42,612 bases of DNA from Eubacterium sp. Lineage in GTDB: Bacteria > Bacillota > Clostridia > Lachnospirales > Lachnospiraceae. Shown here one piece after another: positions 9,294-11,326 of this stretch. The number at the start of each line of letters is the position of its first letter. Position 1 is the first letter of the stretch. The DNA lies in assembly GCA_024698585.1 (NCBI GenBank), contig JAILRB010000011.1, forward strand, positions 1-42,612, given 5' to 3'. The notes under the pieces are model-generated. The model was given only the letters and a program-made list of their open reading frames with translations, was not told the origin of the DNA and did not search any database. Both the position numbers and the translations under genes were made by a program.

Positions 9294-9325
9294 AAGCAGA
9301 AATGATTCGTTTCTGCTTATCTTTT
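9294..9325 (+). terminator. Terminator-like hairpin after the sulfhydrylase gene, running into the hisA ribosome binding site
   Basis: AAGCAGAAA (9294-9302) pairs perfectly with TTTCTGCTT (9310-9318) around seven bases, followed by ATCTTTTT. The T run is followed directly by AGGAG of hisA (9327-9331). Confidence 0.7.
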
Positions 9326-9339
9326 TAGGAGTGAAAATT

Positions 9340-10110
9340 ATGAAGTTTAGACCATGTATTGATATTCATAACGGAAAAGTGAAACAGCTTGTAGGTGGAA
9401 GTCTGAAAGATGAAGGAAACCAAGCAAAGGAAAATTTTGTGTCAGAGCGAAATGCTCAGGATTTTGCAAAACTTTATGAAAAAGATGGTTTGAAAGGTGG
9501 TCATATCATTATTTTAAACCATAAGGATTCCGAATATTTTGAAGCAACCAAAGCTCAGGCAGTCAGTGCCTTGAAAGCTTATCCCGGTGGAATGCAGATT
9601 GGTGGTGGAATCAATGATGGAAATGCAAAAGAATTTATTGAAGCAGGAGCGTCACATGTGATTGTGACTTCTTTTGTGTTCCGTGATGGAAAAGTTGATT
9701 ATGATAATTTAGAAAAATTGGTTGCAGCAGTAGGAAAAGAACATATCGTCCTAGATTTGAGCTGTAGAAAAAAAGAAGGGGATTACTATATTGTTACCGA
9801 TCGCTGGCAGAAATTTACCGAGGAGAAAGTTTCAGTGGAAATGCTGGAAAAATTAGGGGACTACTGTGATGAATTCCTGGTTCACGGCGTGGATGTGGAA
9901 GGAATGGGCTCCGGAATGGAAGAAGACCTGGTAAAACTTCTGGCAAAGTATGACGGGAATGCCATAACTTATGCCGGTGGAATTGCATCCATGGAACAGA
10001 TTGAACGCTTTGGTGCATTGTGTGACAGGAAACTGGATTTTACCATTGGAAGCGCTTTGGATTTGTTTGGTGGAAACCTCTCGTACGACATGGTAAAGGA
10101 TGTTCACTAA
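9340..10110 (+). CDS. hisA: HisA isomerase of the eukaryotic (yeast HIS6-like) type
   Basis: The 256-residue protein is a TIM barrel that matches the fungal/plant form of phosphoribosylformimino-5-aminoimidazole carboxamide ribotide isomerase, not the usual bacterial HisA. Segments that I recognise from that group are FRPCIDIHNGKVKQ, QIGGGIND, VIVTSFVF, VLDLSCRKK, EFLVHGVDVEG, ITYAGG and FTIGSALDLFGGNLSYD. The two catalytic aspartates expected of HisA fit Asp in CIDIHNG and in LDLSCRK. It catalyses the ProFAR to PRFAR ring-opening isomerisation in histidine synthesis. The start at 9340 is chosen because AGGAG (9327-9331) is 8 bases upstream; an in-frame GTG at 9331 overlaps it. No other his gene is nearby. 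The subtype call rests on memory of the yeast sequence. Confidence 0.88.
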   Translation: MKFRPCIDIHNGKVKQLVGGSLKDEGNQAKENFVSERNAQDFAKLYEKDGLKGGHIIILNHKDSEYFEATKAQAVSALKAYPGGMQIGGGINDGNAKEFIEAGASHVIVTSFVFRDGKVDYDNLEKLVAAVGKEHIVLDLSCRKKEGDYYIVTDRWQKFTEEKVSVEMLEKLGDYCDEFLVHGVDVEGMGSGMEEDLVKLLAKYDGNAITYAGGIASMEQIERFGALCDRKLDFTIGSALDLFGGNLSYDMVKDVH

Positions 10111-10116
10111 GTGAAG

Positions 10117-10530
10117 TGCATAGAAAAAGCATAAGTGGTCTGAATCTATGCGTTAGTAGAGGCGGTCTGAAACGTTGTATGCATAGAAAAGACGAAAAAG
10201 GTTGGAATTTATGCAACTATCTAGGTTATTTGAAGTGCGGAATGCATAGAATTCGTACAAAAAGCAGAAATCTATGCATTTATTTAGGAAATATGAAATG
10301 TCGTATGCATAGAAGAAGCAAAAACGATGAGGATCTATGCATTGATTGATCTGATTGGAAAAGTTGCATGCATAGAAGACGTGAAATTTGTTAGAATTTA
10401 TGCACTAAAAAAGAAAAAACGGTAAGTTGTATGCATAGAACAGGCAAAATAAGCTGGAATCTATGCAATGGACGTGAAAAAATATTGAATTGGATGCATA
10501 GAACACGCATAAAAAACAGAAGTCTATGCA
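10117..10530 (+). repeat. Array of seven spaced inverted repeats, exact 63-bp period
   Basis: Seven elements start at 10117, 10180, 10243, 10306, 10369, 10432 and 10495, always 63 bases apart. Each is 36 bases long: left arm TGCATAGA (7 of 7 identical, next base A in all), a 20-base interior, and right arm TCTATGCA (4 exact, TTTATGCA twice, TCTATGCG once). Spacers between elements are all 27 bases. Interiors and spacers are A-rich and mostly diverged, with weak shared features (GGAA before the right arm, TTGAA in the spacer). It fills the gap between hisA and the ClpP-like gene. It is neither a typical CRISPR nor a coding repeat. An RNA of seven hairpins or a platform for a dimeric DNA-binding protein are both possible. 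Confidence 0.9.
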
Positions 10531-10557
10531 TTCGAAAAAGAATAAAAAAGAATATCT

Positions 10558-10587
10558 CCTCCATACTACAAGGTATGGAGGTTTTTT
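10558..10587 (+). terminator. Terminator-like hairpin containing the Shine-Dalgarno of the ClpP-like gene
   Basis: CCTCCATAC (10558-10566) pairs perfectly with GTATGGAGG (10573-10581) around six bases, followed by six T. The start codon of the next gene comes immediately after, at 10588, and its GGAGG ribosome binding site (10577-10581) is inside the right arm. The hairpin could therefore stop transcription, block translation, or both. Confidence 0.8.
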
Positions 10588-11235
10588 ATGGATAGAGAAA
10601 AAGAGTATGGACAGGAGAAGCTGGATCAGAATCAAAAGGGAAAGAATATTCAGCTGATTAGTATTATCGGAGAGGTGGAAGGACATGAGCAACTGGCTTC
10701 CGGGATGAAGGCAACGAAATATGAGCACCTGCTACCACAGTTGGCGAAAATCGAGGATGATGAAGAAATTGAAGGGGTGCTCATTATTATTAATACGGTA
10801 GGAGGAGACGTGGAGTGCGGTCTGGCCATTGCAGAGATGATAGCAGGGCTTAGCAAACCTACGGTGTCGTTGGTTCTGGGAGGGAGCCATTCCATTGGTA
10901 TTCCTCTGGCAGTTGCAGCAGATTATTCCATGATTGTGGAGACGGGAACCATGGTGGTACACCCAGTACGAATGGACGGAACCTTTATCGGGGTAAATCA
11001 GACGTTTCGCTATTTTCAGAAAATACAGGAACGGATTAACTGGTTTGTCACCCATCATAGTAATATAACAGAAGAGCGGTTCACGGAACTGATGAAAGAA
11101 ACCGAAATCATGACAAAGGATGTGGGAAGTATTTTGGTGGGAAAACAGTCAGTGGATGAAGGGATTATTGATGAACTGGGAGACTTGAAAAGTGCATTGA
11201 GAAAACTTTATTGTATGATAGAAAATAAGCAATGA
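10588..11235 (+). CDS. tepA: ClpP-like serine protease of the TepA family
   Basis: The 215-residue protein belongs to the ClpP/crotonase-like peptidases, resembling Bacillus TepA (YmfB). Residues 25-40 form the first strand (LISIIGEVEGH), followed by IINTVGGDVECGLAIAEMI, the nucleophile motif GGSHSIGIPLA with the putative catalytic Ser, and the MVVHPVRMDG segment with the conserved His-Pro. The C-terminal VGKQSVDEGIIDELGD is typical of the family. There is no signal peptide, so it is cytosolic or peripheral. In Bacillus subtilis tepA lies next to spoIIIE; here uppP separates it from ftsK, so the neighbourhood is partly conserved. Its ribosome binding site is buried in a terminator-like hairpin and no alternative start fits. 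Substrate unknown. Confidence 0.82.
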   Translation: MDREKEYGQEKLDQNQKGKNIQLISIIGEVEGHEQLASGMKATKYEHLLPQLAKIEDDEEIEGVLIIINTVGGDVECGLAIAEMIAGLSKPTVSLVLGGSHSIGIPLAVAADYSMIVETGTMVVHPVRMDGTFIGVNQTFRYFQKIQERINWFVTHHSNITEERFTELMKETEIMTKDVGSILVGKQSVDEGIIDELGDLKSALRKLYCMIENKQ

Positions 11236-11236
11236 T

Positions 11237-11275
11237 AAGAGAGGAAAGGCTTGCCAAAAGGTGAGCCTTTCTCTT
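11237..11275 (+). terminator. Terminator of the ClpP-like gene
   Basis: GAAAGGCT (11244-11251) pairs with AGCCTTTC (11264-11271), extended by AGAG/CTCT outside with one bulge, then TTTG. The T run is short. Confidence 0.65.
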
Positions 11276-11297
11276 TGTGGCATATTTGCTGTTTTCC

Positions 11298-11326
11298 TTG
11301 AATAAATAATCAAAAAATAGTAAAAT
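11298..11326 (+). promoter_or_regulatory. Promoter of uppP
   Basis: TTGAAT (11298-11303), 17 bases, TAAAAT (11321-11326), 40 bases before the start codon. Confidence 0.6.

Follow-up and report, generated by a model that had tools for sequence, protein, structure and literature searches.

We have found that the seven evenly spaced hairpins between hisA and the next gene in the stretch of Eubacterium DNA studied here (42,612 bases, hereafter the window) belong to a wider set of intergenic tandem hairpin arrays. They probably act as RNA stem-loops and bear a loose resemblance to REP/REPIN and BOX elements; we put the probability of this reading at about 0.5. To judge from the sequences, it is pairing and dimensions that are conserved in the arrays, rather than one fixed sequence, and selection on the paired hairpins is very likely. 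We refer to the genome of the window as G000 and to related genomes by other G labels; C denotes contigs and L fetched loci.

The window array (10117-10530) is made of seven units of 36 nt, each an 8-bp stem with a 20-nt loop, and keeps a 63-nt step throughout, all units having the form 8-20-8 with spacers of 27 nt. The left arm is TGCATAGA in all seven units; the right arm is TCTATGCA in four, TTTATGCA in two (10180 and 10369) and TCTATGCG in one (10117), giving a unit formula TGCATAGA-N20-TCTATGCA with a single base changed in three of the seven. On the + strand, each of the 56 stem pairs is either a Watson-Crick or a G.U pair. The features are as follows.

9331 to 10110, + strand: hisA, the upstream gene, stop codon at 10110 (TIGR02129 above cut-off)
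10117 to 10152, + strand: hairpin unit 1; 3' arm TCTATGCG, with a U.G outer pair; orthologue kept in G009
10180 to 10215, + strand: hairpin unit 2; 3' arm TTTATGCA, with a G.U pair
10243 to 10278, + strand: hairpin unit 3; arms perfect
10306 to 10341, + strand: hairpin unit 4; arms perfect
10369 to 10404, + strand: hairpin unit 5; 3' arm TTTATGCA, with a G.U pair
10432 to 10467, + strand: hairpin unit 6; arms perfect; we place one end of the 315-bp difference from G009 in its right arm
10495 to 10530, + strand: hairpin unit 7; arms perfect; orthologues in G009 and in G007, where it is the sole unit
10153 to 10494, no strand: stretch in which units 1 to 6 are each followed by a 27-nt spacer (six in all)
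10558 to 10581, + strand: terminator-like hairpin and T-run directly 3' of the array (terminator scan)
10588 to 11235, + strand: ClpP-related protein, downstream (called tepA in the initial annotation); NCBIfam matches all below cut-off

Matches to this pattern at up to three mismatches in the whole window are the seven units and nothing else; 100 shuffles of the window give a mean of 0.15 matches and a maximum of 2. The seven units, the exact period and the geometry given in the initial annotation are all confirmed, and that annotation understated the extent of the phenomenon. Its statement that interiors and spacers have diverged almost completely fits mean between-unit identities of 0.53 for loops and 0.47 for spacers (arms, 0.95), but is slightly strong given that the loops are A-rich.

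The array follows the hisA stop codon and precedes the terminator, and we therefore expect it to be transcribed as part of the hisA message. A similar terminator-like hairpin follows hisA in G006 and G019, which are without the array. A scan for intrinsic terminators, covering loops of 3-8 only, reports 10558-10581 and none of the seven units, and on reading the sequence a T-run, the feature of intrinsic terminators, is absent after all seven. No Rfam 15 family reaches its gathering score in positions 9300-11300 of the window or in loci L110-L113.

The same dimensions recur at other loci and with a second stem. We scanned the fetched loci in a length-free manner (at most one mismatch in each arm, loops of 8-40 nt, orthologues counted separately); among these loci, most of which were first found with 20-nt patterns, 147 of 152 units have a 20-nt loop (57/62 for the first stem, that of the window, and 90/90 for the second) and 100 of 106 steps measure 63 (36/41 and 64/65). 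That no unit is off by even one base, as had been claimed, is true of the window array, but over all the first-stem loci, with the window included, 5 of the 41 steps deviate to 61, 62 or 64 and 5 of the 62 loops are other than 20 nt. An in-register count, under a rule that retained weak units only if they were in register and that the length-free scan dropped, gives steps of 63 in 132 of 137 cases (first stem 50/53, second 82/84). Units were otherwise found with fixed 20-nt patterns; in one search that allowed 18-22 nt, the exact-arm matches were all of 20.

The initial annotation had proposed looking for the layout in related genomes with other arms allowed, and this was productive: the first stem is found in G007 and G009, and other stems, mostly with 20-nt loops, were found as well. 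In the window's own genome, first-stem clusters (at most three mismatches) lie on C8, C28, C33, C41, C52 (the window) and C64, with steps of 63 and one exception of 62, and single or degenerate sites lie on C17 and C3. Consecutive first-stem arms occur in 3 of 23 genomes of the genus (G000, G007 and G009), and a reversed-pattern control gives none. In genome_contigs (84,980 species), three consecutive arms yield 11 stretches in three assemblies, Tb.RUG.99, RUG11188 and Tb.RUG.215, where RUG presumably stands for rumen uncultured genome. Among 392 genomes drawn from the order, a degenerate three-arm pattern matches in the window's own genome only (0/391 others). We also considered viral spread and rejected it, three patterns having zero matches in viral_contigs.

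The second stem, TGCACCCT/AGGGTGCA, is present in 5 of the 23 genus genomes, with more than two matches in three of them (73 in G006, 25 in G016, 14 in G009, 2 in G007 and 1 in G000, at up to two mismatches). Its reversed-pattern control gives 0 everywhere except for one match in G002, a genome without a true match. G009 therefore carries both stems, in one geometry. Loci at which both neighbours exceed a family cut-off include rnhB/yraN, desulfoferrodoxin/GH16, feoB/GtrA, thiI/radical SAM, U32/Mg-chelatase and AMP-binding/amidohydrolase, and other flanking genes include rsmH, dnaE and one for a ClpX-like ATPase. The neighbours are varied and mostly housekeeping, which argues against a pathway-specific regulator. 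We note that in G007 the contig pairs C40/C49 and C42/C52 carry near-identical arrays at contig ends; the assembly probably breaks there, and the true unit number may be higher.

Still other stems appear further afield. An RNA model of the first stem led to G020, whose arrays have the stem GGCATATA/TATATGCC, 20-nt loops in 23 of 25 units and 64-nt steps in 14 of 18; the thiI array of this genome lies between stop codon and terminator, as in the window. When a model (R3) built on the first stem together with that of G020 was run over 397 genomes of the family, 22 genomes, G000 included, matched at E<=0.01. In the 24 matching loci read from the 21 other genomes, tandem arrays are evident in G457 and G686 only, the remainder being by appearance single hairpins or chance; at L125, L133, L142 and L146 the reading covered the locus start only, and three matches there were probably missed. 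Read by eye, the G457 array has the stem GGCACAGG/CCTGTGCC at a step of 52, and the G686 array has a step of 51 with the stems GGGCGTGT and GGGCATAG within the same array. A stem-agnostic scan of 396 kb of G000 and 400 kb of G019 is noisy (places in the sequence and in its mirror control number 4 and 8 for G000, 3 and 15 for G019, 1 and 0 for the window) and so on its own proves nothing; we kept only places that we could read as sequence. These include further G000 arrays with a step of about 64 (L256:9521-9778 and L261 at about 12021, both on C41, and L269 at about 7327 on C59), with the stems AAGGTACA/TGTACCTT and GTGTACCC/GGGTAC, and arrays in G019, which is without the window's stem, with steps of 72 (L246:13206-13500) and 71 (L245, about 14687).

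Comparison of orthologous gaps indicates what is kept and what is not. The hisA-tepA gap holds seven units in G000, two in G009, one in G007 and none in G006 and G019. The two units of G009 correspond, by our reading, to units 1 and 7; the difference from G000 is 315 bases (5 x 63), and we place its ends in the right arm of unit 1 and in that of unit 6. At the rnhB-yraN gap a difference of 126 bases likewise ends in arms, as does a larger one between C3 and C40, where the junction was read by eye and automatic alignment is poor. As read from these junctions, the arrays differ by complete units, at short stretches of homology within the arms, and we infer that the whole-unit differences between species are losses. 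Degraded arms at the same gap in close relatives had been named as an outcome that would undo the argument for selection; the arms remaining in G009 and G007 are intact or nearly so. YraN is present in 22 of the 23 genus genomes, and in 13 of the 19 besides G000, G007 and G009 the stretch upstream of it was read. There G006 has an array with the TGCACCCT/AGGGTGCA stem in an identical 8-20-8 layout, eleven genomes have the rnhB end but no array, and in G019 the upstream sequence is different.

Between orthologues, 8 of 432 arm positions have changed against 60 of 999 elsewhere (Fisher P=3.7e-4, pooling 11 comparisons of orthologous stretches that are partly dependent). In the eight most diverged first-stem arrays, loop identity is 0.32-0.54 and arm identity 0.81-0.95; some arrays are near-identical, with loop identity up to 0.95. 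Together with the 100 of 106 steps at 63, these figures uphold the suggestion that length and arms are kept while content drifts.

Covariation provides the second line of evidence for selection on pairing. We used alignments of 45 (A1) and 60 (A3) units, hand-picked to be non-redundant, and of 94 units picked by script (A4). In the 60 units, which cover the first and G020 stems, 97.1% of cells are paired, and both sides have changed in 46 cells against 15.2 +/- 2.8 after shuffling, a value reached by none of 500 shuffles; with slid registers pairing drops to 14-58%. When the second stem is added (94 units, three stems), 93.8% of cells are paired vs 71.8%, although these cells reflect few independent stem changes and many of the units were found with palindrome patterns, so that the counts overstate independence. 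The G006 stem, which came from reading the orthologous gap, and paired changes within single units are free of that weakness; both arms have changed inside single units at the rnhB-yraN and C40 loci. The 45 first-stem units taken by themselves do not surpass the shuffles (96.7 vs 96.3 paired; covariation score reached in 55/500), and the evidence of covariation thus comes from stems that differ between genomes and from the single units. A further helix within the loop lacks conservation, with 41% of its cells paired.

It is more likely that the arrays work as RNA hairpins than that they act as DNA, and we consider action at the RNA level probable, with action as DNA possible. The proposal of a string of RNA hairpins, made in the initial annotation, is backed by the covariation and mostly by orientation. 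The A-rich loop strand is the sense strand of co-directional neighbours at 22 of 25 loci (7/7 for the first stem, 9/12 for the second and 6/6 for the G020 stem, where two of the six may be one array split by an N run). With distinct locus events as the unit of counting, scored on the gene strand and with sense set by hand for four loci (L029, L030, L034 and L035), changes to G.U outnumber those to A.C by 15 to 4 in the first stem (P=0.019); the counts are 11 vs 9 in the second stem, 2 vs 3 in the G020 stem and 28 vs 16 in all (P=0.096). The five-unit AAGGTACA array has five G.U pairs and no A.C, in a register picked for maximal pairing, which favours G.U. Folding of the interiors relative to shuffles gives a mean z of -0.46 for the sense and -0.36 for the other strand, and carries no strand signal.

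Each unit is a 36-nt stem-loop with an A-rich 20-nt loop, the 27-nt spacer setting the 63-nt step, and we suggest that a row of such stem-loops would be transcribed as the 3'-terminal part of the hisA message. There they would most likely change decay or processing of the message, or a putative hairpin-binding protein would hold them. A role in 3'-end stability or processing is our tentative suggestion for what the arrays actually do. Several observations count against this reading. The G.U excess is weak over the three stems, the A-rich sense strand may be ordinary composition, and the inner loop helix is not kept. Among 31 loci, with neighbours taken as open reading frames found by length and those overlapping the array set aside, four arrays lie between divergent and two between convergent genes, and transcription of the array is not assured there. 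At L038 a terminator, identified by eye, immediately precedes the array. Of all the facts, independent RNA hairpins account least well for the constant length of the spacers.

A bolder and rather doubtful possibility is that the arrays are a new, length-ruled hairpin-array system in which the geometry is shared and the stem is a replaceable code, different from array to array and from species to species, read by a putative hairpin-binding partner, the arrays being multivalent landing sites in RNA (or extruded DNA) across the genome. Interspersed palindromes of bacteria usually form one-sequence families linked to a transposase. The present arrays, diverged and near-identical alike, hold their dimensions while stems are swapped and loops drift, and may thus be regarded as a natural experiment on what selection sees, namely pairing and length. 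The kept dimensions would predict that a partner gauges how large the hairpins are and how far apart they lie. The arrays also point to a class of intergenic repeats in Lachnospiraceae for which no Rfam family reaches threshold in the stretches searched.

About as doubtful is the possibility that the arrays are a non-autonomous mobile or parasitic repeat of the REP/REPIN or BOX kind, without host function, whose arms are kept for recognition by a transposase or recombinase. Dispersal among varied, mostly housekeeping genes, the empty state of the same gaps in relatives and the variable unit number would all agree with this, as would a Y1 transposase (PF01797) over cut-off in three array-bearing genomes, G000 (two matches), G457 and G686. 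However, PF01797, the only transposase family searched, is over cut-off in just one (G000) of the five array-bearing genus genomes tested; it is below cut-off in G006 and gives no match in G007, G009 and G020, although these are incomplete MAGs in which absence is uncertain. Arms are moreover conserved inside diverged arrays and between orthologues, and loops and spacers differ between loci, unlike those of recent copies.

REP, REPIN and BIME elements are, according to PMC3116915 and PMC3733652, short dispersed extragenic palindromes that can fold in mRNA or single-stranded DNA, and REPINs sometimes form tandem clusters whose units are nearly identical, flanks included. The arrays, too, are dispersed extragenic palindromes, but their loops and spacers often differ from unit to unit, the loop is variable and 20 nt long, and several unrelated stems share one geometry. 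Across 29 distinct first-stem spacers no tetranucleotide of the GTAG or CGTC type is conserved beside the arms; an A precedes the 5' arm in 23 of the 29, the spacers are purine-rich, and otherwise nothing next to the arms is conserved. A REP family driven by a RAYT is unsupported both by the distribution of PF01797 and by the missing tag. Pneumococcal BOX elements are described in PMC3049150 as modular intergenic repeats with a variable number of tandem boxB modules, predicted to form RNA stem-loops in transcript extensions. Like them, the arrays are intergenic and tandem, vary in unit number and are predicted to form stem-loops; in the arrays, however, the stem is conserved and the loop variable, instead of a module being conserved, and inspection by eye of the flanks listed revealed no shared sequence of the boxA/boxC type. 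REP/REPIN and BOX are the closest known kinds, even though the tag that defines REP/REPIN was not found and the RAYT is absent or below cut-off in four of the five array-bearing genus genomes tested. The literature that we found, in which subscription journals are thinly covered and which includes the abstract of PMC8355165, does not describe this layout.

Somewhat less probable again is a phased platform at the DNA level, on which a dimeric or polymerising protein would bind the arms as duplex half-sites, with 63 bp placing all units on one face of the helix. Six helical turns at 10.5 bp make 63 bp, and so the same-face argument of the initial annotation is arithmetically sound for this step; steps of 51-52 and 63-64 are close to five and six turns, but those of 71-72 are not whole turns, nor is the distance of 28 bp between half-sites within a unit. 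The 63-bp step is held exactly in 100 of 106 cases despite differences in loop and spacer between loci, and 4 of the 31 loci lie between divergent genes, as such a platform might lead one to expect. Because every 63-bp repeat carries power at 10.5 bp, we compared AA/TT harmonics with the arms masked and used random windows as controls. Among eight harmonics, the one at 10.5 bp has the most power in 10 of 23 arrays with a 63-bp step, some of them orthologues, and ranks second in eight more; it is first in 12% of 1500 random G000 windows and 14% of 600 AT-rich windows. However, it is first in none of 11 arrays with other stems or steps. Strand-wide DNA curvature was accordingly rejected as a general feature, being seen in many 63-bp arrays and absent from others. 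A single sequence-specific protein would not explain several stems per genome, and a platform of this kind predicts neither changes in both arms of one unit nor the orientation of the loops with the genes. The initial interpretation as a whole, which had offered RNA hairpins and such a platform side by side, is partly supported.

An improbable explanation is neutral tandem duplication, by which the exact period would simply be inherited from a founder unit. Near-identical arrays (loop identity up to 0.95) would fit this, as would changes of copy number by whole units with ends inside the arms. Against it, diverged arrays keep their arms over their loops, arms are under-substituted between orthologues, the stem pairs covary, and the second stem holds identical dimensions. 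Least of all do we credit a 21-codon tandem protein repeat (63 = 3 x 21), which stops and the non-triplet periods of relatives (64 and 52) refute, and with it the idea, raised in the initial annotation, that a conserved reading frame explains the period: the sense TGC-ATA frame, which has one stop in the C33 array and none in those of C8 and of G007 C72, holds 11 stops in the window array, the other sense frame holds two in the window and 9-11 in the C28, C33 and C8 arrays and orthologues, and left-arm positions 3 and 6, synonymous sites in the TGC-ATA frame, are invariant in 44 of 44 units.

Two further systems invite comparison with the arrays. Like a CRISPR, an array has a regular step, a constant part that is partly palindromic and a variable part of fixed length; unlike a CRISPR, it has only two 8-bp arms that are constant, stretches of 20 and 27 nt that vary (window loop identity 0.53), no identical full-length repeat, and a step common to unrelated loci. 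Partition sites of the sopC/parS type consist of tandem direct repeats with an inverted repeat in each. Array units are likewise tandem repeats that each contain an inverted repeat, but the arrays occur at many chromosomal sites, with several stems and species-dependent steps.

Lastly, we note some other repeats and hairpins encountered in these genomes. On C33 of G000 (L264:1741-1900) there is a tandem array of roughly 27-bp units, GTGGCTGAACGTTAGTTAGCCAGTCGA-like and apparently unrelated to the 63-bp arrays. Two relatives have TGCATA/TATGCA palindromes upstream of genes read as argC (L120 and L126), which resemble what we take to be arginine boxes and are presumably false positives of the hairpin model. 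At L118 and L121 (G014 and G002) a terminator-like hairpin with a TGCATA stem and a T-run precedes a gene read as spoIIID. In G019 a lone hairpin, TGCACAGA...TCTGTGCA with an inner AGCA/TGCT stem (L116, about 3065; G019:C1:1703065), sits between a gene end and a promoter-like stretch.
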